DNA of 64,000 nt from Nitrospira sp. (lineage in GTDB: Bacteria; Nitrospirota; Nitrospiria; Nitrospirales; Nitrospiraceae), in contig JACOEH010000004.1 in NCBI GenBank assembly GCA_024998685.1, positions 1-64,000 of the forward strand, given 5' to 3'. A program made the position numbers and the translations under genes. The notes below the pieces were generated by a model, which searched no databases, was not told the origin of the DNA, and saw only the letters and a program-made list of their open reading frames with translations. Of the stretch, positions 42,941-53,815 are shown piece by piece (position 1 is the stretch's first letter; every line of letters starts with the position of its first letter).

Positions 42941-43897
42941 TCAAGAGGGCACATGACTTCGCAACATGAATTCCTTGGGGTACGGATCGAAGTACACCTG
43001 ATCTTTTAAGTATGTGACGTGATAACTCTCGATGAAATGCTTCAACAACACGAGCGGCGCGACGAGCGGCACCAGCCTGTTGCGATAATCCTCGATCACG
43101 ACCGCCAATTCGGTTCTTTCGGACGCAGTAAGGATTTCTTTCAGATGCCCGACGATATGTTGAAGGACGTCGGTGTGCTTGCGCACCGTCGCTTTCACCG
43201 TTAACGCCTCCACGAAATCAAGGCCGTAGCGAACCACAAGGCCGGTGGGTGTATAACGGGCGGCACTCGCTACCAGACGACCGAGACGTTCGTAATGCTT
43301 ACGGCTATGCGAGAGAAGTAAATATTTGTGCCGAGTATGGAACTGAATCATGGCCGATGCGTCGGGCTCAGTAAGCATGAACTCGCGCCAACGTTGGTAG
43401 CCGAATACGCGGGCAATAAAATTTTCACGCAACGATAAGTCCAGCAAACGGCCTTCTTCCTCGACCGGGAGAAGAGGAAACGATTGACGAAAGGCTTGCG
43501 CAAACAAGCCAGTGCCGTTTCGATTCGGCATTCCATGTCGATTGTAAACTCGAACCCGTTCCAACCCGCAGCTCGGCGAATTCTTTTTGAAAACAAAGCC
43601 GCATAGGCCGACCGAATTTAGCTCCTGAAGCCGTCGCTTTGAAAAGGCTTCCATATGCTGAGTATGATCGTGTCCTGTGTTGATGGTGATCAGACGAGGA
43701 AAGGGAAGCGATCCCTCTAGACGCAGAGACTCGCGCGGCGTGCCGAGTCCGATCTCAACCTCCGGACAGACAGGCACCCATTCCACATGCCGTCCGAGCA
43801 TATCAACGAGGAACGCATCGCGCTTATGACCTCCATCGAATCGAACAGGTTCACCTAGCAAGCATCGACTGATGCCGAGACGTATAGGCATGTTCAT
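42941..43897 (-). CDS. DUF523-DUF1722 protein (YbgA-like)
   Basis: The 318-residue protein has two domains. N-terminal DUF523: IRLGISRCLLGEPVRFDGGH, VEWVPVCPEVEIGLGTPRES and FVFKKNSPSCGLERV (conserved Cys residues). C-terminal DUF1722: FHTRHKYLLLSHSRKHYERL and YLKDQVYFDPYPKEF. Function unknown; it often lies beside photolyase genes, as here (photolyase at 44506, two genes upstream). The Cys pattern suggests a metal or thiol site. It probably belongs to the photolyase operon. Confidence 0.88.
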   Translation of the reverse strand: MNMPIRLGISRCLLGEPVRFDGGHKRDAFLVDMLGRHVEWVPVCPEVEIGLGTPRESLRLEGSLPFPRLITINTGHDHTQHMEAFSKRRLQELNSVGLCGFVFKKNSPSCGLERVRVYNRHGMPNRNGTGLFAQAFRQSFPLLPVEEEGRLLDLSLRENFIARVFGYQRWREFMLTEPDASAMIQFHTRHKYLLLSHSRKHYERLGRLVASAARYTPTGLVVRYGLDFVEALTVKATVRKHTDVLQHIVGHLKEILTASERTELAVVIEDYRNRLVPLVAPLVLLKHFIESYHVTYLKDQVYFDPYPKEFMLRSHVPS

Positions 43898-43925: not shown

Positions 43926-44459
43926 TCACCGATCTAAGTGAGAGGCTGCCATGGAAAAGCGTCGCAGCTGCTCTGCCAATGTCTTCGCGATAAGCTGCAG
44001 ATCGAACGGCCAGGCATAGCGCAGTTCCACCCCAGGATGTTTTGACCGCAACTGATCCAAAATCTCCGGTATCTCTATTTGTGAGTGCGAGCCACCCGGC
44101 GTGAACATCGTGGTCAACACGGTAATGGAAGTCGCGCCTTGGCTAATCAAATCCTCCACCGCTTCTTCCAGTGTAGGCGCACAGAATTCATTGTAGGCAA
44201 CTGTAAATAGGGCTTCGGCCAGGTAGGGCTTTAGCACAGCCGCTACTGCCTCCAGTCCAGATTGATAGGAGTCTGTCGCCTTGGTTCTCGCCCAGCGTCG
44301 GATTGTCGTGTCCAGCTGGATCTCTTCGTCCGAGGGCGGTTGCTTCGATGCGCACCGTTGCGACTCCAACCGTTTCAATCTACTGACCAGCTCTTGGGGG
44401 CAATCTTTCGGAATGCCGCCATGACCGACCAGAATCACTCCCTGTTTGAATGCCGCCAT
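43926..44459 (-). CDS. CbiX/sirohydrochlorin-chelatase-like protein
   Basis: The product has 177 residues. It starts KQGVILVGHGGIPKDCPQEL, with the catalytic-type His in GHGG, and has EALFTVAYNEFCAPTLEEAV and ITVLTTMFTPGGSHSQIEIP, with a His in GGSHSQIE. This is the class-II chelatase fold, which inserts Co or Fe into sirohydrochlorin on the way to B12 or sirohaem. A B12-dependent regulator is encoded nearby (51607), so a cobalamin link is attractive, but it is only inferred. GAGGAG precedes the ATG. Confidence 0.8.
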   Translation of the reverse strand: MAAFKQGVILVGHGGIPKDCPQELVSRLKRLESQRCASKQPPSDEEIQLDTTIRRWARTKATDSYQSGLEAVAAVLKPYLAEALFTVAYNEFCAPTLEEAVEDLISQGATSITVLTTMFTPGGSHSQIEIPEILDQLRSKHPGVELRYAWPFDLQLIAKTLAEQLRRFSMAASHLDR

Positions 44460-44505: not shown

Positions 44506-45951
44506 TCATCTCCTCACCTGTTGCTTGCCGAGATTCAAATATTCCTGACGGGCCTGCCGATGATCCACGACGGGTGTAGGGTAATCGACACCGATGTGAC
44601 AAGCATACCGGTCTTGTTCTTCCGGGGACATCAGATGCGGCTCATGAATCCTGTTAACAGGTACACTGGCAAGCTCGGGGACATAGAGACGGATGTAGGT
44701 TCCGTCCGGATCGAACTTCTTGCTCTGGAGAGCCGGATTGAAAATCCGATAACCCCGCATGGCATCAGTACCGGTGGAGGCACACCACTGCCAATTACCA
44801 TTGTTGGCGGCGACATCCGCATCGAGCAGTTGATGCATGAAATACCGCTCGCCGCTCTGCCAGTCGATCCGAAGATCCTTGATCAGAAATGAGGCCACGA
44901 CCATGCGGACACGGTTGTGCATCCATCCCGTTTGATTGAGTTGCCTCATCCCCGCGTCCACGATCGGATACCCGGTGTGCCCGCTGCACCAGGCTTGAAA
45001 GAAGCGATACCGTTCCGGCCCAGGTCGACGTGAACGAGGTATCGCTGCGTTTCGAAAAGGCCCCTCAGCGACCTGCGGAAAGGCCGTCAGGACTTGCTGA
45101 AAGAATTCGCGCCAGATCAGTTCATCGACCCAGGCCAGGACATCAACACGAGACCCCCGACCATTTTCGGCTAATGTGCGTAAGGCGGCATGGATTGCCA
45201 TGCGCGGCGACAGGGTTCCGAATCTGAAGTGTGGTGAGAGTCTTGAACTGCCGTCGCTTGCCGGAAGATTTCGTCCGTCGCTATATCGGTGTATGGGACC
45301 ATTGAGAAAACTCCGCAATCGTTTGAGAGCCTGATGTTCTCCCGGTTCTATCCATGGCGTCAACACGTCATAGCCCAAGTCATTTGCCGAAGGAAGTGTA
45401 GACATGCATTGCGATGAAAGCGGTCTCGTGGGTTTGATCGGCTTCGGAACTGGTAGCGCGACCGGCTTAACGGTCTGCCACTTGACCCACCAACGAGTGC
45501 GATAGGCACTATAGCGCTGCAACGGTTCTCCGGTGACGCCGCGCACCTCCTCCGCTTCGAATACCACGTGATCCTTAAAGGTTCGTGCGGACATACCCAT
45601 CCCAGCCATTTGCTGCTGAACTTGTCGATCGCGATGTTTCGCGCGCGGTTCATAGTCTCGATTCCAATAGATGAGGTCTGCCTTACAGTCGTGCGCTTCG
45701 CGAATCACTTCCTCTACCGGTTCTCCGCGTCGCCATTGAAGCAGAATTCCTATACCGGCTAACGATGATGCAAGGTGTTCTAAGGATCCGAGCATGAAAT
45801 TTACGCAGGCCGAGCCAAAAATGCCGGATCGCAGAAGCGGTTCATCGAACACGAATAATCCGACCACCTCGTCGCACTCTTCGACGGCTGCCGACAGCGC
45901 GGGATTGTCATGGACTCGAAGATCGCGCCGAAACCATACCAACCCTCGCAT
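44506..45951 (-). CDS. phr: Deoxyribodipyrimidine photolyase
   Basis: This 481-residue class I CPD photolyase repairs UV-induced pyrimidine dimers with FADH- and light. N-terminal Rossmann part: GLVWFRRDLRVHDNPALSAA, DLIYWNRDYEPRAKHRD. FAD-binding part: SRLSPHFRFGTLSPR, WREFFQQVLTAFPQ, TGYPIVDAGMRQLNQTGWMH, RMVVASFLIKDLRIDW and DADVAANNGNWQWCASTGTD. All key motifs are present. GGAGGAGGGA precedes the ATG, and the start overlaps the stop of a short upstream frame (TAATG), a sign of operon translation. CarH-like control is possible. Confidence 0.97.
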   Translation of the reverse strand: MRGLVWFRRDLRVHDNPALSAAVEECDEVVGLFVFDEPLLRSGIFGSACVNFMLGSLEHLASSLAGIGILLQWRRGEPVEEVIREAHDCKADLIYWNRDYEPRAKHRDRQVQQQMAGMGMSARTFKDHVVFEAEEVRGVTGEPLQRYSAYRTRWWVKWQTVKPVALPVPKPIKPTRPLSSQCMSTLPSANDLGYDVLTPWIEPGEHQALKRLRSFLNGPIHRYSDGRNLPASDGSSRLSPHFRFGTLSPRMAIHAALRTLAENGRGSRVDVLAWVDELIWREFFQQVLTAFPQVAEGPFRNAAIPRSRRPGPERYRFFQAWCSGHTGYPIVDAGMRQLNQTGWMHNRVRMVVASFLIKDLRIDWQSGERYFMHQLLDADVAANNGNWQWCASTGTDAMRGYRIFNPALQSKKFDPDGTYIRLYVPELASVPVNRIHEPHLMSPEEQDRYACHIGVDYPTPVVDHRQARQEYLNLGKQQVRR

Positions 45952-46182: not shown

Positions 46183-46410
46183 CTATTTTTCGGGTCTTTC
46201 ATGAGATTCCGCCGCCTGTTTCAACTTGTCGCCTGAAACTCGTGTGATGGACAGTTCACGAAGGCCGTTTTCACTCTTGGCTCCAACTCTCACGGTGGTT
46301 TCCGCTTCACCTCGAATCATACCGGCCACTTGCTCATAACTCTTTCCCCTCACGGGTGTGCCATCAACACTCATGACCTCATCACCATGGCGAAGGCTCT
46401 CATGGGCTCA
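46183..46410 (-). pseudogene. PDZ-domain fragment
   Basis: In frame: LRHGDEVMSVDGTPVRGKSY then EQVAGMIRGEAETTVRV and REL.ITR. This is the second half of a PDZ domain of the S41-peptidase/PDZ type (LxxGDxIxxVDGxxV). The first half and any protease domain are absent, and the frame opens after a stop. It is a leftover between the epimerase and photolyase genes. Confidence 0.75.
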
Positions 46411-46419
46411 TAACCCGGC

Positions 46420-47358
46420 TCATGCTGCCTTTAATGCGTTTTCCGCACCGATCAGGATGGTTTGCAATGTGGGCGCGAGCTTTGAATATTGAAATGTATA
46501 TCCCTCCGCCATTGCTTTTGCGGGAATCACCCGCTGACCGGTTGTCATGATGGTCCCTAACTCACCAAGCAGAATGTCCAGTGCAATGCCTGGAACGGGA
46601 ACCCACGATGGCCGGTGAAGCACCCGCCCAAGCACTTCACAGAACGCGTTCATTGTCACAGGCTCTGGGGCCACGGAATTGAAGGGTCCTGAGACACCGT
46701 CGTTCACTAAAGCCCATTGAATGAGACCAATATGGTCACGGCGATGAATCCAGGAGACCCACTGAGTTCCCGGCATGATGGGACCACCTGCGAACAGCCT
46801 GAATGGCATTACCATTTTGGCCAATGCCCCACCGTCTGCCTCCAAAACCATGCCGGTTCTCGCGAGGACCACGCGAGTCCCAAACTCTGAGGCGCTCATC
46901 GCTTCCGACTCCCAGGCAAGACAGAGGTCGGCGAGAAACCCGGTGCCGCGAGCAGCGCCTTCATCCAATAGGCGATCATCGCTGGCACCGTAATAGCCGA
47001 TGCCGGAGGCATTCACTAGTACGCAACGTTTCGTGGCATGGCTGCGTAACGCTTCCACGACTGCTTTTGTCGAGCTGATACGACTGTCCCAAATGAGCCG
47101 TGTACGCGACTCAGTCCAACGTCCTTCAGCAATCGGTGCTCCAGCCAGATTGATTACGGCATCAGCAGCTTCAAATACCGCTGACCATGTGCCGGCTGCG
47201 CGAGGATTCCAGTTGATGCAGGTCACCGGCGACGGCAGTAGCGCTCTCGCGCCGCCGGCGTTCCTAGAAAGGACCGTCACGCTGTGCCCGTTTTCCAGCA
47301 GATCATTGACCAAGGGTCGTCCGATAAATCCTGTCCCACCGGTTACGATGATTCGCAT
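46420..47358 (-). CDS. TIGR01777-family NAD-dependent epimerase (YfcH-like)
   Basis: The 312-residue SDR-extended protein has MRIIVTGGTGFIGRPLVNDL (nucleotide loop), DAVINLAGAPIAEGRWTESR, VLVNASGIGYYGASDDRLLD with the YGxxG-type Ser/Tyr region, WESEAMSASEFGTRVVLART, and WVSWIHRRDHIGLIQWAL. Known as a putative sugar-nucleotide epimerase of uncertain substrate, commonly found beside photolyase. AATGGAGTAGG precedes the ATG. First intact gene of the photolyase run. Confidence 0.9.
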   Translation of the reverse strand: MRIIVTGGTGFIGRPLVNDLLENGHSVTVLSRNAGGARALLPSPVTCINWNPRAAGTWSAVFEAADAVINLAGAPIAEGRWTESRTRLIWDSRISSTKAVVEALRSHATKRCVLVNASGIGYYGASDDRLLDEGAARGTGFLADLCLAWESEAMSASEFGTRVVLARTGMVLEADGGALAKMVMPFRLFAGGPIMPGTQWVSWIHRRDHIGLIQWALVNDGVSGPFNSVAPEPVTMNAFCEVLGRVLHRPSWVPVPGIALDILLGELGTIMTTGQRVIPAKAMAEGYTFQYSKLAPTLQTILIGAENALKAA

Positions 47359-47787: not shown

Positions 47788-48630
47788 TCATTCGTGAGGC
47801 ACGTTTTCGAGACTGCGGGCACAACGAAATCCCGTGCCATGGGTCTGTAGGGCGAATCCACCACGGCCACGCGCCGATGTTGTGATATCGGATGCCGGAC
47901 TATGCCAGGACCCTCCACGAATGGAACGAACTACTCCCTTCGTGTCGGGACCGTGAGGATTTCGCTTAGGCGCGTCCTTGTAATACGCCGGGTCGTACCA
48001 GTCAGATACCCACTCTCTGACATTGCCAGCCATATCTTTGACTCCGTAAGGGGAATCACCGTCCGGAAGCGAACCGACCGCGTGCAATGTGTGCTCATCC
48101 TCCCATTCGCGATCAAAGTTCGAACGTTTCGCAGTCGGCTGCTCATTGCCCCAAGGATAGATGCGGCCGTCTGTTCCACGAGCGGCCTTCTCCCACTCCG
48201 CTTCCGTCGGGAGTCGCTTTTTAGCCCAAGCGCAATAGGCCTTGGCGTCGTACCAGGTTGTTTGTACGACAGGAAGTTGTTCGAGCCCCTTGACGGATAG
48301 AAGCGGACCCGTGCCATAGGGATTGGGTGGGTTTTGATGGCCGGTGGATTTCACAAAGGCCATATACCGTTCATTCGTCACTTCGACTTGATCGATCGCA
48401 AACTCCTCGAGGTATACAGATTGCTGCGGCCACTCGTCCGCCCGGCCTTTTCCCTCCGGAGAGCCCATCAAAAATTCACCGGCTGGGATCGTAATCATCG
48501 GAACGAGGTCTGTCTCCTTCGATGCGGGCAGCGCCTCCACGGCTAACCATTGTGTGAAGGCCAAGATCAAGACCACTGCCACGGTCGTTCGGGGCATTCG
48601 AATTGTATTGCGCCACAAAGCGGTCGTCAT
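47788..48630 (-). CDS. Exported SUMF1-fold protein 1
   Basis: The 280-residue protein has a signal-anchor region (VVLILAFTQWLAVEALPASK). The SUMF1 (formylglycine-generating-type) fold begins at MITIPAGEFLMGSPEGKGRA, with FAIDQVEVTNERYMAFVKST, WYDAKAYCAWAKKRLPTEAE and WGNEQPTAKRSNF. The end shows SIRGGSWHSPASDITTSARG then GFRCARS. In true FGE the stretch after RGGS carries two catalytic Cys; here there are none, so sulfatase activation is unlikely. The ATG overlaps the stop of the SmbP-like gene. Probably a periplasmic C-type-lectin-like binding or chaperone role, as in NirV, but unknown. Confidence 0.88.
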   Translation of the reverse strand: MTTALWRNTIRMPRTTVAVVLILAFTQWLAVEALPASKETDLVPMITIPAGEFLMGSPEGKGRADEWPQQSVYLEEFAIDQVEVTNERYMAFVKSTGHQNPPNPYGTGPLLSVKGLEQLPVVQTTWYDAKAYCAWAKKRLPTEAEWEKAARGTDGRIYPWGNEQPTAKRSNFDREWEDEHTLHAVGSLPDGDSPYGVKDMAGNVREWVSDWYDPAYYKDAPKRNPHGPDTKGVVRSIRGGSWHSPASDITTSARGRGGFALQTHGTGFRCARSLENVPHE

Positions 48631-48995
48631 TTCTTCGGTTCCTTGCTGCTTTCAATCGCTTGGGTCGTATGCAATCTGACTTGTTCGATCATCTGCTCGA
48701 CCTGGCGCTCGTCGCCATGCGCGGCAGCCTCCTGAGCCTGAGTAATCAGAGTTCGCGCCTCGTGCAAATGTTCCTCGATCTCCACCTGCACTCTCGGCGA
48801 GGCCACGGTGCCTCCAAGTGCCGCCCGGTGATAAACTTCCCAGGCGTGATCCACTTCGTGTTCGACTTCGTGCACGGCCCTCACGCTTTCCCGGTATGGG
48901 TGGTCGGAAGGTTCAAGAGGACCCGCTTGGAGGTCTGGCGCCATGAGGAGCATGCAGAAAGTAATTTCAAGCGATAAAACAGAACTGGTTGTCAT
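48627..48995 (-). CDS. SmbP-like exported small protein
   Basis: The product has 122 residues with a signal peptide (LSLEITFCMLLMAPDLQAGP). The mature part is helical and His/Glu-rich: VRAVHEVEHEVDHAWEVYHR, then EIEEHLHEARTLITQAQEAA and QVRLHTTQAIESSKEPKK. Regular His spacing on amphipathic helices matches the small metal-binding protein SmbP described in Nitrosomonas. Copper or other metal binding is inferred from that match. The gene sits between two SUMF1-fold genes, joined to the next by an ATGA overlap. Confidence 0.7.
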   Translation of the reverse strand: MTTSSVLSLEITFCMLLMAPDLQAGPLEPSDHPYRESVRAVHEVEHEVDHAWEVYHRAALGGTVASPRVQVEIEEHLHEARTLITQAQEAAAHGDERQVEQMIEQVRLHTTQAIESSKEPKK

Positions 48996-49013: not shown

Positions 49014-50195
49014 TTATGGATATGACCCGTTCAAGGCTTTCTTCGCTTGTTCAATCAGCGATTGAAGCTCAAGGAAGTCGGCATTCTTCGGGGCAATGGC
49101 TAAGCCTCGGGCTACCGCCTCTTGAGCTTCGGCAAAATGTTCTCGTCCCATTTCTACCAGGGCGATGGTATACGCCTCTCTGATCTGCAGTTCGATCTCA
49201 GGTGGTGCAGTCCGGGCACAGCGAAATCCCAGACCGACGCCATAGCTGTTGTTGAGGGGACTGTTCCAGAACCGATGGGTCGTCCTTAATGTGGCTTCAG
49301 GGGCGATCCAAGAGCCGCCACGGATCACTCGCTTTTCTCCGACGGTCAGGCGATCCACATATGTACCGGTTCCTCCAAGCCAGACGGGATTCTCAGGGCC
49401 GGTAGGGTTTGCCGTCGCCTGCGACCGACGGTAGTAACGGGGGTCATACCAATCCGCGACCCATTCGAATACATTGCCGGCCATGTTATAGACGCCGTAG
49501 TGACTGACCCCCTCAGCATACGCATCGATCGGGGCTGTGGATTCACGTCGCTTGCCGAAATTCGCCTTTTGAGGGTCGAACTCATTTCCCCAGGGATACA
49601 GATTCGCATGCGGGCCCCGAGAGGCCTTCTCCCACTCGGCCTCCGTCGGTAATCGCTTTTCATGGAACTCGCAAAACGCCTTGGCGTCATACCAGTTGAC
49701 TCCTACCACCGGCTGCTCAGGTCTGTTCAGACGAGCATCATCCCAATAGGCCGGAGCCGCGTGGCCGGTCGCTCTCATGAATGCTCCGTAGAAATGATTC
49801 GATACCTCGTACTTATCGATCAGGTATGCATCGAGAAGCACGGTATGGGCGGGGCCTTCGTCGTGAAAAGCTTCGGCCGACCAGGGAGCGGCCATTCGCT
49901 TATCGTAAGCACTCAGTTCTCGCATTGGTCTGGGTGATTCGATCTTCTCGATTCCCATTGTGAAGGACCCATGAGAGATATACACCATATCCTTGGGAAT
50001 GCCCGTCTCAGCCCATGTTTGTCCTACGCTTGTCAGGATCACGCAGAGAGATAGGAACCTTCCAACCCATATCTTCGGCACTCCGTGTTGCAGACTCCTT
50101 TGAAGTAGGGAAGTACTCCGTGAGGATGTCTCTTTATTTGAGGTTGTACTGAACAAGGCCTTGAAGATCGTTGCCTTTACGAATCGACTCCGCAT
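49014..50195 (-). CDS. Exported SUMF1-fold protein 2 with TPR-like tail
   Basis: The product has 393 residues. A long N-terminal segment of about 45 residues precedes a hydrophobic helix (FLSLCVILTSVGQTWAETGI). The SUMF1 core has DMVYISHGSFTMGIEKIESP, LDAYLIDKYEVSNHFYGAFM, WYDAKAFCEFHEKRLPTEAE and NMAGNVFEWVADWYDPRYYR. The end of the fold reads RVIRGGSWIAPEATLRTTHR, then GLGFRCA. The FGE catalytic Cys positions are Ile/Ala/Pro here. The last 50 residues (ALVEMGREHFAEAQEAVARG) look like one TPR hairpin. GGGAGG precedes the ATG, and the next gene lies 18 bp on. Confidence 0.9.
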   Translation of the reverse strand: MRSRFVKATIFKALFSTTSNKETSSRSTSLLQRSLQHGVPKIWVGRFLSLCVILTSVGQTWAETGIPKDMVYISHGSFTMGIEKIESPRPMRELSAYDKRMAAPWSAEAFHDEGPAHTVLLDAYLIDKYEVSNHFYGAFMRATGHAAPAYWDDARLNRPEQPVVGVNWYDAKAFCEFHEKRLPTEAEWEKASRGPHANLYPWGNEFDPQKANFGKRRESTAPIDAYAEGVSHYGVYNMAGNVFEWVADWYDPRYYRRSQATANPTGPENPVWLGGTGTYVDRLTVGEKRVIRGGSWIAPEATLRTTHRFWNSPLNNSYGVGLGFRCARTAPPEIELQIREAYTIALVEMGREHFAEAQEAVARGLAIAPKNADFLELQSLIEQAKKALNGSYP

Positions 50196-50206
50196 GGACG
50201 GCCTCC

Positions 50207-51163
50207 CTATTTTTTCTTCATGTTTTTCCTGATCAGTTCACGCATAGCTAGATACTCCTGGTTGCTCGGGTCAGCCGTTAAAGCTTTTTCGATCGAGACC
50301 ATTGCGTCCCTATGTTTCTCCGCCCCCATCGCGACTAACGCATGAATAAAGGCATCACGGCTCTCTTGCATGGCTTCGTCAGTTATGGTCTGTGCTGATT
50401 TGGCGCAGCGAAATCCTAAGCCGACTCCATACGAGTTATTGTCGGGTTGATTCCAGAATCGATGGCTCGTGTGGAGAGAGGTTTCCGGAGCCAGCCAGGA
50501 GCCTCCCCGCAACACTTTTACCGGTCCTTGCTTGGCAAAGTTATAGCCTTGCTCGGCTCCCTTGGGATTCAGCGCGACGCTCTGTTTGTAGTACGAGGGC
50601 TCGTACCAATCCGCCACCCACTCAAACACGTTGCCGGCCATGTTATAGATGCCGAAGCCGTTCACGCCCTCGGGATAAGAATCGACTGGTGTCGTGCGAC
50701 CGACATTCTGTCCATAATTCGCCTTTTGGGGATCAACTGTGTGGCCCCAAGGGAAGTGGTTATCCCCCGCGGGACCTTTAGCAGCTCGCTCCCATTCAGC
50801 TTCAGTGGGGAGCCTCTTGCTTTCCCATGTACAGAACGCGTCCGCGTCGGTCCAGCTGACTCCGACGACCGGCTGATTTGGCTTACTGAGACGCGGGTCA
50901 TCCCAATAGGCAGGAGCCGGATGCTGTGTCGCCTTCATAAACGTCTTGTAACGCTCATTCGACACTTCATATTTATCGATAAAATATTGATCGAGAACGA
51001 CCCGGTGCTGGGGCTCATCGGCATGCTCGCTGCTGCCCATCATGAATTCCCCGCGAGGAATAGACACCATATCCTTGACGGCATCCGCTGACGCCGCATA
51101 GACCGAGACTCCAGTCATCAATAAGACCAACATGCTTGCAGCGATAAATATTTTCGTCACCAT
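50207..51163 (-). CDS. Exported SUMF1-fold protein 3 with TPR-like tail
   Basis: The product has 318 residues. It starts at ATG 51163 after GGAGGACAATGCG. The signal peptide MVTKIFIAASMLVLLMTGVS is followed by the SUMF1 core: DMVSIPRGEFMMGSSEHADE, LDQYFIDKYEVSNERYKTFM, WTDADAFCTWESKRLPTEAE, NMAGNVFEWVADWYEPSYYK, and RGGSWLAPETSLHTSHRFWN with no catalytic Cys. The last 45 residues (HALVAMGAEKHRDAMVSIEK) form a TPR-like end similar to protein 2. First gene of the SUMF1-SmbP run. In other ammonia or nitrite oxidisers such proteins are near copper or haem enzymes; here the partner is unknown. Confidence 0.9.
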   Translation of the reverse strand: MVTKIFIAASMLVLLMTGVSVYAASADAVKDMVSIPRGEFMMGSSEHADEPQHRVVLDQYFIDKYEVSNERYKTFMKATQHPAPAYWDDPRLSKPNQPVVGVSWTDADAFCTWESKRLPTEAEWERAAKGPAGDNHFPWGHTVDPQKANYGQNVGRTTPVDSYPEGVNGFGIYNMAGNVFEWVADWYEPSYYKQSVALNPKGAEQGYNFAKQGPVKVLRGGSWLAPETSLHTSHRFWNQPDNNSYGVGLGFRCAKSAQTITDEAMQESRDAFIHALVAMGAEKHRDAMVSIEKALTADPSNQEYLAMRELIRKNMKKK

Positions 51164-51218
51164 CGCATTGTCCTCCCTCATTACATGACATGCCCGCTAA
51201 AGAATGCGGGGAGTCAGT

Positions 51219-51479
51219 CTACAAGTGCCATGGTTGGACGCCCCGCTCGGTCTCCACGTTGCTTGGGCAGCGCAACCGATTCTTCAAGATCACGGAATCA
51301 ATGATTTCTCCACATTGAACACACCGTTCCGCTGCCACTTCAGACCAATGGAAACCCAGTTCTGGAAAGACTTCCGGCACCATCAGCCCGCCGCACCGTC
51401 GGCAATAGTCCAGGTGTAATGGAGCGGCTAGTGAGGTTGGGTTGACATGATCTACTGTTGCCATGGTGCCTGTTGCCAT
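51219..51479 (-). CDS. Small zinc-ribbon protein divergent from the CarH-like gene
   Basis: The product has 86 residues. It starts at ATG 51479 after GGAGAGGAGG. Two CxxC pairs: LDYCRRCGGLMVPEVFPELG and ERCVQCGEIIDSVILKNR, a zinc-ribbon layout. It is similar to the 2998-3210 protein. It shares a compact promoter region with the CarH-like gene, and three TTGGACA half-sites overlap its promoter, so it is a likely direct target of that regulator. Its role is unknown. Confidence 0.7.
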   Translation of the reverse strand: MATGTMATVDHVNPTSLAAPLHLDYCRRCGGLMVPEVFPELGFHWSEVAAERCVQCGEIIDSVILKNRLRCPSNVETERGVQPWHL

Positions 51480-51498: not shown

Positions 51499-51594
51499 TG
51501 TCCAATGTTGTGTCCAATGTAACTCCTATATGTCCAACGTGTCAAGCATATATACCGCAAGTAATTTGACAAACAATGGACATGCATATATGCT
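51499..51594. promoter_or_regulatory. Divergent promoters with a putative CarH operator
   Basis: Minus promoter: TTGACA (51540-51545), 17-bp spacer, TTACAT (51517-51522). Plus promoter: TTGACA (51566-51571), 17-bp spacer, TATGCT (51589-51594). TGTCCAA half-sites occur at 51499-51505, 51511-51517 and 51531-51537, and an inverted TGGACA at 51577-51582. The half-sites overlap or abut both promoters, as expected for autorepression. Direct repeats one helical turn apart (12 bp for the first two) recall the known CarH operator build; sequence details differ. Confidence 0.7.
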
Positions 51595-51606
51595 GATCCT
51601 TACCCT

Positions 51607-52527
51607 ATGAACACGCATAGAATACATAGAGTTGCAAAGCTGACTGGTCTCTCTAAAGACGTAATCAGGGTCTGGGAGCGCCGATATGGACTTGTCAAAC
51701 CTTCGCGAAGTGCAAATCGCTACCGCATCTATACCGACGATGAGGTGGCGCTGCTGCGGTATGTGAAAGCACAGATGGATCAAGGGCAGACAATCGGGGA
51801 TCTCGTTGCGATCGGTCGCGAACAACTCGTAGCGGAGGCGACTCGGACCGCTCGGACGGAGGCATCCGAAACGCAACCGTACGAGCGGCTCCTACACGAA
51901 CTTATTGGATTACTCAATCCACTGAGACGCGAATCGTTTGAACGTCGCCTCAATGGAGCAGTTGCGGTGATTCCTTTTGAAGAAGCTATCTTTGGCATCC
52001 TGTTGCCTCTCCAAACTCGGGTGGGGCAGTTATGGCATGACGGGCATCTCAACGTGGCGGTCGAACATTACGTGACCAATCAGGTTCGCCAAAAGCTATT
52101 CGCAGCTATGAGCCATCTGCCGGTGCATGAAAAAGGACTCAGCGTAGTGGTGGCCTGTCCCGTAGGAGAATTTCATGAGGTAGGAGCTCAAGCGGCTGCT
52201 TATCTATGCGCCTCACGCGGCTGTCAGACCTATTATCTCGGAGCCAACATGCCTCTGGACCAGTTGGCAATATTCTGCAGGCAGATCGACCCGGATGTCC
52301 TGTTACTGTCCGTGACTGTGCCACCCCCGGCTCATGACTGGTCTTCCTGGATTGCGACGCTCCGAGATCTCACGGCTCCTCATCGAACTATACTGATTGG
52401 AGGCGCCGCTGCGCACTCCCTTGTCCTTCCTGTCGGGGCACGGCGCATCGAGATCCTGAATGAGCTTCCGACCCTTGAGCAGCGGCTGACTGTGCTTATG
52501 GCGAAACAAGCCGTGCGCGTGCGGTGA
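51607..52527 (+). CDS. carH: CarH/LitR-type B12-dependent photoreceptor repressor
   Basis: The product has 306 residues. The N-terminal MerR-type HTH reads HRVAKLTGLSKDVIRVWERR. A four-helix bundle and Rossmann B12-binding domain follow. The light-sensing signature W-x9-EH is present: Trp143 in QLWHDGHLNVAVEHYV, with Glu153 and His154. The lower-ligand His190 lies in GEFHEVGAQ (ExHxxG). In family members, AdoCbl drives tetramer formation and DNA binding, and light breaks the Co-C bond and releases DNA. Very short leader: the -10 ends 12 bp before the ATG. Nearby photolyase, DUF523 and an FAD oxidoreductase are typical light-induced targets. The LitR name is equally used. Confidence 0.92.
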   Translation: MNTHRIHRVAKLTGLSKDVIRVWERRYGLVKPSRSANRYRIYTDDEVALLRYVKAQMDQGQTIGDLVAIGREQLVAEATRTARTEASETQPYERLLHELIGLLNPLRRESFERRLNGAVAVIPFEEAIFGILLPLQTRVGQLWHDGHLNVAVEHYVTNQVRQKLFAAMSHLPVHEKGLSVVVACPVGEFHEVGAQAAAYLCASRGCQTYYLGANMPLDQLAIFCRQIDPDVLLLSVTVPPPAHDWSSWIATLRDLTAPHRTILIGGAAAHSLVLPVGARRIEILNELPTLEQRLTVLMAKQAVRVR

Positions 52528-52557: not shown

Positions 52558-53815
52558 ATGAACGTTCGAGGTGGATCTCCCATACTGATCATCGGTGCTG
52601 GACTCGCAGGCCTATGCTGTGCTCGGCATTTGACTGATCATGGCGTCGAGTGTTTGATCCTAGAAGCGTCGGATGCGCACTGATCGAAGCGAAGGTTTTT
52701 TGTTCGATCGAGGATTTCAGGTTTTGCAGAGTGCCTATCCGGAGGCTCAGCGTATGCTCGATATGCCGGCGCTTGATCTTCGGCCGTTCTATTCTGGAGC
52801 ATTGGTGCGTTATGGCGGCCGGTTCCATAAGGTCGCCGATCCGTGGCGACAACCGCTGGACGCCCTCGCCGGCCTCTTATCTCCCATTGGAACGTTACGC
52901 GACAAGGTCAAGATTGGACGCTTACGCTCACGTCTGCTCGAATCCACGCTGGAGGAAATCTTTCGTCAACCGAATATACCGCTACATGAGGTGCTGCATG
53001 AGGAGGGCTTTTCCCCTTCGATTATTGAACGCTTTTTAAGACCTTTCTTTTCAGGGGTATTCTTGGAGCGATCGTTGGAGACATCGCGCCGGCTATTCGC
53101 TTTTGTATTCCGGATGTTCGCACAAGGCATCACCGCTCTCCCTGCGAACGGTATGGAAACGATATCTGAGCAATTGGCTGCCGGCCTAAGGCCTCGAATT
53201 CAACCGAGTGCGATGGTCACGACTGTTGACGGCACAGAGGTGATTTTGTCGTCCGGAGAACGGGTGGTGGGGGATGCGCCAGCGGCCATACGATTGGTGC
53301 CCGAACTTCATTCCCCGCTATCCCGCAGTGTGGTCTGTCTGTACTTTGCCGCGCCTCAACTGCCGATCGAGGAACCCATATTGGTTCTGAACGGAGAAGG
53401 TCAAGGTCTGATCAATAACATGTGTGTGCCGAGCCAGATCGCACCGAACTATGCTCCTCCCGATACAGCTCTCGTCTCTGTGACGGTGTTGGGAGATCCC
53501 CCGGAAGACGATCGGGAGCTGGAACAATCGGTCCGTGCGCAACTCGCCGATTGGTTTGGAAAACAGGTGGGACAATGGCGGTTTCTGCGGTGTTATCGAA
53601 TTCCCAATGCGTTGCCGTGCCAACAGCCTGAGATGATTGAAAAAATCCCTGAGACGGTTCGTCTACGCAGCGGTCTCTTTATCTGTGGCGATCATCGAGA
53701 AAATGCCACGATCAACGGCGCGATGGTCTCAGGACGAAAAGCGGCGGAAGCCGTCCTGCAAACCGAGAGCTTTAAAGCAGTCGATGCCGCGAAACGATTC
53801 AATAATCCAACCTAA
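52558..53815 (+). pseudogene. FAD-dependent amine-oxidase-like oxidoreductase, broken by a short deletion
   Basis: It starts at 52558 with a clear Rossmann loop: PILIIGAGLAGLCCARHLTD, ending LILEASD, then a stop within about 6 bases. The rest continues in another frame: RTDRSEGFLFDRGFQVLQSA to INGAMVSGRKAAEAVL. Relatives have a VGGR segment between the two parts, which contacts FAD. About 14-17 bases seem to be lost there, so the cofactor site is damaged and the frame is shifted. Such proteins are phytoene-desaturase-like. It follows the CarH-like gene by 30 bp and was probably its operon partner. Confidence 0.85.

Follow-up and report, generated by a model that had tools for sequence, protein, structure and literature searches.

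A 64,000-nucleotide stretch of a Nitrospira genome (contig C6, hereafter the window) very probably encodes an AdoCbl-dependent CarH photoreceptor that represses from a divergent operator, with repression in the dark and release in the light. Judged from studied relatives of the protein, light probably opens a cluster of DNA-repair and stress genes, and the switch is probably shut in the dark. The controlled gene set probably has FGE-fold and photolyase genes at its centre and in related genomes appears to reach subunits of ammonia monooxygenase. The direct evidence consists of the identity of the protein, its ligand residues and predicted fold, the layout and conservation of the operator, synteny and co-occurrence.

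The predicted photoreceptor protein

The carH gene (51607..52527, plus strand) encodes 306 amino acids and was assigned to the class I CarH/LitR photoreceptor-repressors through Pfam, PDB relatives, ligand residues and an AlphaFold model combined with a fold search. The N-terminus is a MerR helix-turn-helix (PF13411, MerR_1, E=2.2e-14). Of the two B12 domains, the four-helix bundle (B12-binding_2, PF02607) scores above its cut-off and the Rossmann domain (B12-binding, PF02310) slightly below (31.4 bits against 32.1). The best solved relatives are Thermus CarH/LitR proteins, which match over the full length (E=5e-28). The AlphaFold model has a mean pLDDT of 87.5, and the fold search returns 5C8F and 5C8D as top matches (E of about 1e-15; TM-score for the CarH B12 domains up to 0.81 by target).

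A preliminary description of this DNA had proposed a CarH/LitR-type photoreceptor on the basis of W-x9-EH and ExHxxG signatures, and both the identity and the signatures hold. They are found as W143-x9-E153-H154 and E188-x-H190-x-x-G193, where H190 is the lower-ligand histidine and H144, directly after the tryptophan, the upper-ligand histidine. The Thermus equivalents of W143, H144, E153, H154, E188, H190 and G193 are W131, H132, E141, H142, E175, H177 and G180; every Thermus ligand-site residue that we checked is present. Close relatives have kept the signature as well: the first six residues are invariant in 58 of 58 aligned orthologues. The final glycine is alanine in 15 of the 58, which counts against the CarH reading, as does the score for the CarH equivalog model NF052513 of NCBIfam (136.2 bits over residues 5-289, below the curated cut-off of 400); that model is narrower than the CarH family. 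From its sequence the window protein is a class I CarH/LitR-type AdoCbl photoreceptor, with AdoCbl binding predicted.

The nearest CarH belongs to Nitrospira sp. LS_FP_2_bin.31 (91% identity), the second nearest being 58% identical. In the CarH tree the window protein and that of locus L055 form a separate lineage beside two larger Nitrospira clades; one carH clade has alanine in place of the motif glycine. Two carH genes labelled as Pyrinomonadaceae (L077) and Nitrosospira (L091) fall inside the Nitrospira clades and probably stem from mislabelled or contaminated bins.

The protein could instead resemble class II LitR, leaving its own B12 unused and being driven by another photosensor, for example a short LOV protein. 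Pseudomonas class II LitR likewise controls photolyase genes (PMC9758184), but unlike class II the window protein has the two B12 domains together with every ligand residue, and we consider this alternative very improbable. A further alternative is a sensor of cobalamin availability, in which the repressor's main signal is the supply of AdoCbl and light plays an incidental part for bacteria living mostly in the dark. CarH-type proteins do need AdoCbl for DNA binding (PMC9304148), Nitrospira marina must obtain its B12 from outside (PMC8115632) and a CbiX-like gene lies within the leftward block. Against this, the histidine that serves as upper ligand after photolysis in Thermus (PMC10442372) is kept in 58/58 orthologues, the photolyase and RudS neighbours indicate light, and an Rfam search of the 64-kb window gave zero matches, to cobalamin riboswitches or otherwise. 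Control by cobalamin supply is quite unlikely on balance.

The operator and its promoters

The operator (51499..51582, without assigned strand) comprises TGTCCA at 51499, 51511 and 51531, TGTCAA at 51540 (the leftward -35 box read in reverse), TTGACA at 51566 and TGGACA at 51577. Six T[TAG]GACA-type sites in an intergenic region of 127 bp compare with a mean of 0.46 in 20,000 dinucleotide shuffles, none of which reaches six (0/20,000), and with at most two per 100 bp in the remainder of the window. As described before for four TGTCCA-type half-sites, the six TnnACA-type sites overlap both divergent promoters; they include both -35 boxes.

The rightward promoter, that of carH (51566..51594, plus strand), consists of TTGACA, a 17-bp spacer and TATGCT, and was obtained from a promoter scan and aligned with relatives. 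The leftward promoter (51516..51545, minus strand; promoter scan) consists of TTGACA, 18 bp and TACATT. Each scores 10/12, better than any other promoter match in 6.6 kb of scanned sequence. The -35 boxes are perfect and face outward (51545 on the minus and 51566 on the plus strand). The earlier characterization as near-ideal promoters with exact 17-bp spacers is correct for the -35 boxes and for the rightward spacer, but overstated for the pair, as both -10 boxes match at 4/6 positions and the leftward promoter prefers 18 bp. In the window the -10 box of carH stops some 12 nt short of the ATG (51589-51607), likewise in most relatives, and with so short a distance the carH transcript may have almost no leader.

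The MerR-family DNA-binding domain would also suit a conventional MerR-type activator of the two promoters. Promoters activated by MerR proteins usually have spacers of 19-20 bp, against 17-18 bp here, and both -35 boxes lie within the sites; an activator of this kind is extremely improbable. The CarH operators studied so far are built of 11-bp repeats nnnnTnnACAn and may include the -35 box (PMC9304148). Here the rightward pair TTGACA to TGGACA is spaced by 11 bp; counted against the CarH reading, the leftward TGGACA sites are spaced by 9, then 20, then 12 bp rather than 11 bp. A similar operator layout is found upstream of about 60 carH genes in Nitrospira and other Nitrospirota, down to a protein identity of about 46%.

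The preliminary description had proposed searching the genome for clustered TGTCCAA sites. No other convincing cluster of TGTCCAA or TnnACA sites was found in the 64 kb, nor in the genome of 4.83 Mb, for which the scans were pattern searches only. A wider regulon in this genome was rejected: convincing operators occur at the carH locus only, and weaker matches are comparable to the reversed-pattern control. A match with one mismatch on contig C95 was discarded because it lies inside a coding gene.

The leftward gene block

Leftward of the operator all genes discussed here lie on the minus strand. The first (51219..51479) encodes a small zinc-ribbon protein (CxxC...CxxC), based on alignment and a weak PF13453 match below cut-off; its start at 51479 was taken from reading the sequence, and the family is kept in 52/58 loci. 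It is followed by FGE-fold (SUMF1-like) protein 1 (50207..51181; PF03781, PDB alignment and a cysteine check), FGE-fold protein 2 (49014..50195; PF03781), a small conserved protein that matches no known family and whose N-terminus is signal-like (family F3, 48627..48995; locus comparison and alignment), and FGE-fold protein 3 (47788..48630; PF03781). The three FGE-fold proteins have signal-like N-termini. None of them has a cysteine in the catalytic segment, nor does any of the 118 relatives with a detectable motif. We therefore rejected FGE catalytic activity: with the C-terminal copper-binding cysteine pair missing, these proteins are not formylglycine generators by the Cys-pair test.

Beyond a 430-bp gap lie genes for an SDR-family protein of the TIGR01777/YfcH type (46420..47358) and a DNA photolyase (44506..45951), both from profile matches, a CbiX-like protein (43926..44459; PF01903) and a RudS-type protein (42941..43897), in which a TudS domain is fused to DUF1722 (PF04463 and PF08349) and which belongs to the tRNA 4-thiouridine desulfidase family (PMC11417400). 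Between the SDR and photolyase genes the C-terminal part alone of a PDZ-type protein can be read (46183-46374); in relatives this protein is full length. On the other side, downstream of carH, the frame of an amine-oxidase-like flavoprotein gene (52560..53815, plus strand) is broken by a gap of 17 nt relative to L055, due to either decay or an assembly error.

In 50 of 79 Nitrospira genomes both carH and the first FGE-fold gene are present, in 23 both are absent, in four carH occurs alone and in two the FGE-fold gene alone (Fisher p=9e-14, a value inflated by the relatedness of the genomes). Some of the six discordant cases are at contig ends. In most relatives the FGE-fold genes are divergent from carH. 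Adjacent carH copies (two to three) were also observed at L059, L100 and L104, each opposite a zinc-ribbon and/or FGE-fold gene.

Control might be limited to carH and the zinc-ribbon gene, with the FGE-fold and photolyase genes as mere neighbours. The 430-bp gap before the SDR and photolyase genes would agree with this, as would genome G001, which retains zinc ribbon, SDR, operator and carH without the FGE block. Three observations oppose it: the gaps are short all the way from the zinc-ribbon gene to that of FGE-fold protein 3, with these genes on one strand; the duplicate carH copies of L165 are each opposite a zinc-ribbon and/or FGE-fold gene; and at the outgroup locus L167 a single strand, beginning at the carH operator, carries zinc-ribbon, FGE-fold, SDR, PDZ, photolyase and RudS genes in series (L166 resembles it, with no photolyase called there). 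We hold such limited control to be unlikely, and the zinc ribbon as sole leftward target was likewise judged unlikely. Of the earlier proposal that the protein represses itself and the zinc-ribbon gene, autoregulation and divergent control are thus retained, given the conserved operator layout and an ATP:cobalamin adenosyltransferase gene in the host genome (PF01923), whereas the leftward target is widened to a multi-gene block. In view of the 430-bp gap, co-transcription of the FGE-fold genes with the SDR and photolyase genes is only presumed for this genome.

The host and the operator in other Nitrospira

The host genome is 98.8% complete in 105 contigs. It contains two full-length amoC genes (G000:C97:31182-31913 and G000:C12:43691-44416; PF04896, E=3e-106 and 6e-103), and amoA was absent from searches with PF02461 and with a comammox AmoA protein, a query that detects the gene in three other genomes. 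Two CarH-bearing Nitrospira without amoA (G093, G029) also lack amoC. The host, with two amoC genes and no amoA detected, is in contrast probably of comammox descent, its amoA having been lost or left unassembled. Nitrite oxidation by the host is presumed from its genus, and the earlier label of probable nitrite oxidiser is too narrow in view of the two amoC genes.

Scanning for TTGACAAACATTGGACA with at most two mismatches yielded 112 sites in the 56 genomes that have CarH or its operon, where the reversed control gave 6, against 10 sites in 23 genomes without either (control 4). The 56 include G068 and G099, in which the operon is at a contig end and carH was not found.

Several of these sites precede genes other than carH. 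In five genomes a carH-type operator lies before a gene of the sigma-70 family (L153:2862-4236, L154:4120-5497, L155:2561-3938, L156:3694-5073 and L163:3726-5103; Pfam-confirmed on one, by sequence similarity on the other four), which suggests a regulatory cascade. In comammox relatives it lies between a divergent glutathione peroxidase gene and amoD-amoC (AmoC: PF04896, E=1.5e-105; AmoD candidate: match to PmoD 6CPD, E=1.5e-8). The locus is intact in G062 (L160:2426-4986) and G100 (L207:148-2626) and cut by contig ends in G013, G070, L096, G097 and G011, the last of which has amoC 1 kb behind an operator that lies where the contig begins; amoC is partial or broken in G031, G064 and G068. In L057 (2173-2973), L106 (2851-3492), L107 and L079 (6464-7312) the block divergent from carH itself contains an amoC or amoD gene in leftward orientation. 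Hence, as far as can be read from the DNA, near-identical switches stand before ammonia-monooxygenase part genes in related ammonia-oxidising strains. In L201:1640-4432 and L203:4375-7212 amoC is immediately followed by an FtsH protease gene, and in L210:2794-8124 such a gene is part of the amo cluster.

CarH control of amoC was rejected in the window's genome, where both upstream regions are without operator. It was also rejected where amoC lies some 2.1 kb behind carH (as in G059, G064, G066, G090 and G019): in most of these strains the two are separated by an Lcl_C-family gene of opposite orientation, and the region upstream of amoC has no cluster of operator-type repeats. Overall, the operator distribution suggests light control of ammonia-monooxygenase subunits in comammox relatives, not in the window's genome. 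We lean slightly towards the broader reading that in comammox Nitrospira CarH, through light and B12, also controls spare copies of these subunits, the window's genome being a reduced version. Light would then turn on spare ammonia-monooxygenase subunits, peroxide defence and DNA repair, possibly as a recovery programme for photoinhibited ammonia oxidation, and the window's genome would keep only the photolyase/FGE-fold arm. Inhibition by light has been documented for a comammox strain (PMC9797979).

Proposed mechanism and comparison with known systems

CarH biochemistry comprises AdoCbl-dependent occupancy in the dark, photolysis, capping by histidine, release and derepression (PMC9304148; PMC10442372). 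By homology, AdoCbl binding, the oligomer switch, the direction of the light effect, transcription as far as the photolyase gene and any role of the FGE-fold proteins are predicted as follows. In the dark, AdoCbl would sit between the four-helix bundle and the Rossmann domain with H190 as lower ligand, and loaded CarH would assemble into a DNA-binding oligomer that occupies the TnnACA repeats, including both -35 boxes, and keeps carH and the leftward block off. UV, blue or green light would break the Co-C bond, H144 would cap the cobalt, and the oligomer would dissociate and open both promoters. The leftward block would then supply the zinc-ribbon protein, the three FGE-fold proteins and the small conserved protein and, further downstream, probably also the SDR, photolyase and RudS proteins. 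The photolyase and RudS neighbours, together with glutathione peroxidase in relatives, point to a photodamage role, and the block may be a photodamage programme rather than one of carotenoid synthesis.

With a candidate photoreceptor, an operator sequence and a list of predicted targets across the genus, the light-response question becomes directly testable. We found no published account of CarH in Nitrospira light responses, in a search thin on subscription journals, so reports may be missed; two papers that mention CarH as well as Nitrospira appear to deal with other systems. With the proposed switch, B12 photoreception would reach beyond carotenoid control, to FGE-fold/photolyase blocks and perhaps, in relatives, to a key nitrogen-cycle enzyme.

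Class I LitR/CarH of Thermus thermophilus (5C8D, 5C8E, 5C8F) has the same domain order, ligand residues and fold, and its sites likewise contain the -35 box. The window's system differs from it in its targets, which are other than carotenoid genes, in sites that cover the -35 boxes of two divergent promoters, in a longer half-site common to the genus (CATTGGACA) and in a leftward spacing other than 11 bp. Myxobacterial CarH (PMC9304148) likewise uses TnnACA repeats, one containing TTGACA, and some of its operators serve two divergent promoters, but carotenoid clusters are controlled there and FGE-fold, photolyase and RudS genes here. The class II LitR clusters of Pseudomonas (PMC9758184, PMC11417400) also combine photolyase and RudS genes with a LitR-type regulator; the functional B12 domain is missing there, whereas it is kept in the window protein. 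Finally, the three leftward proteins share the fold of the FGE (SUMF1) family (PF03781), without its catalytic cysteine pair.
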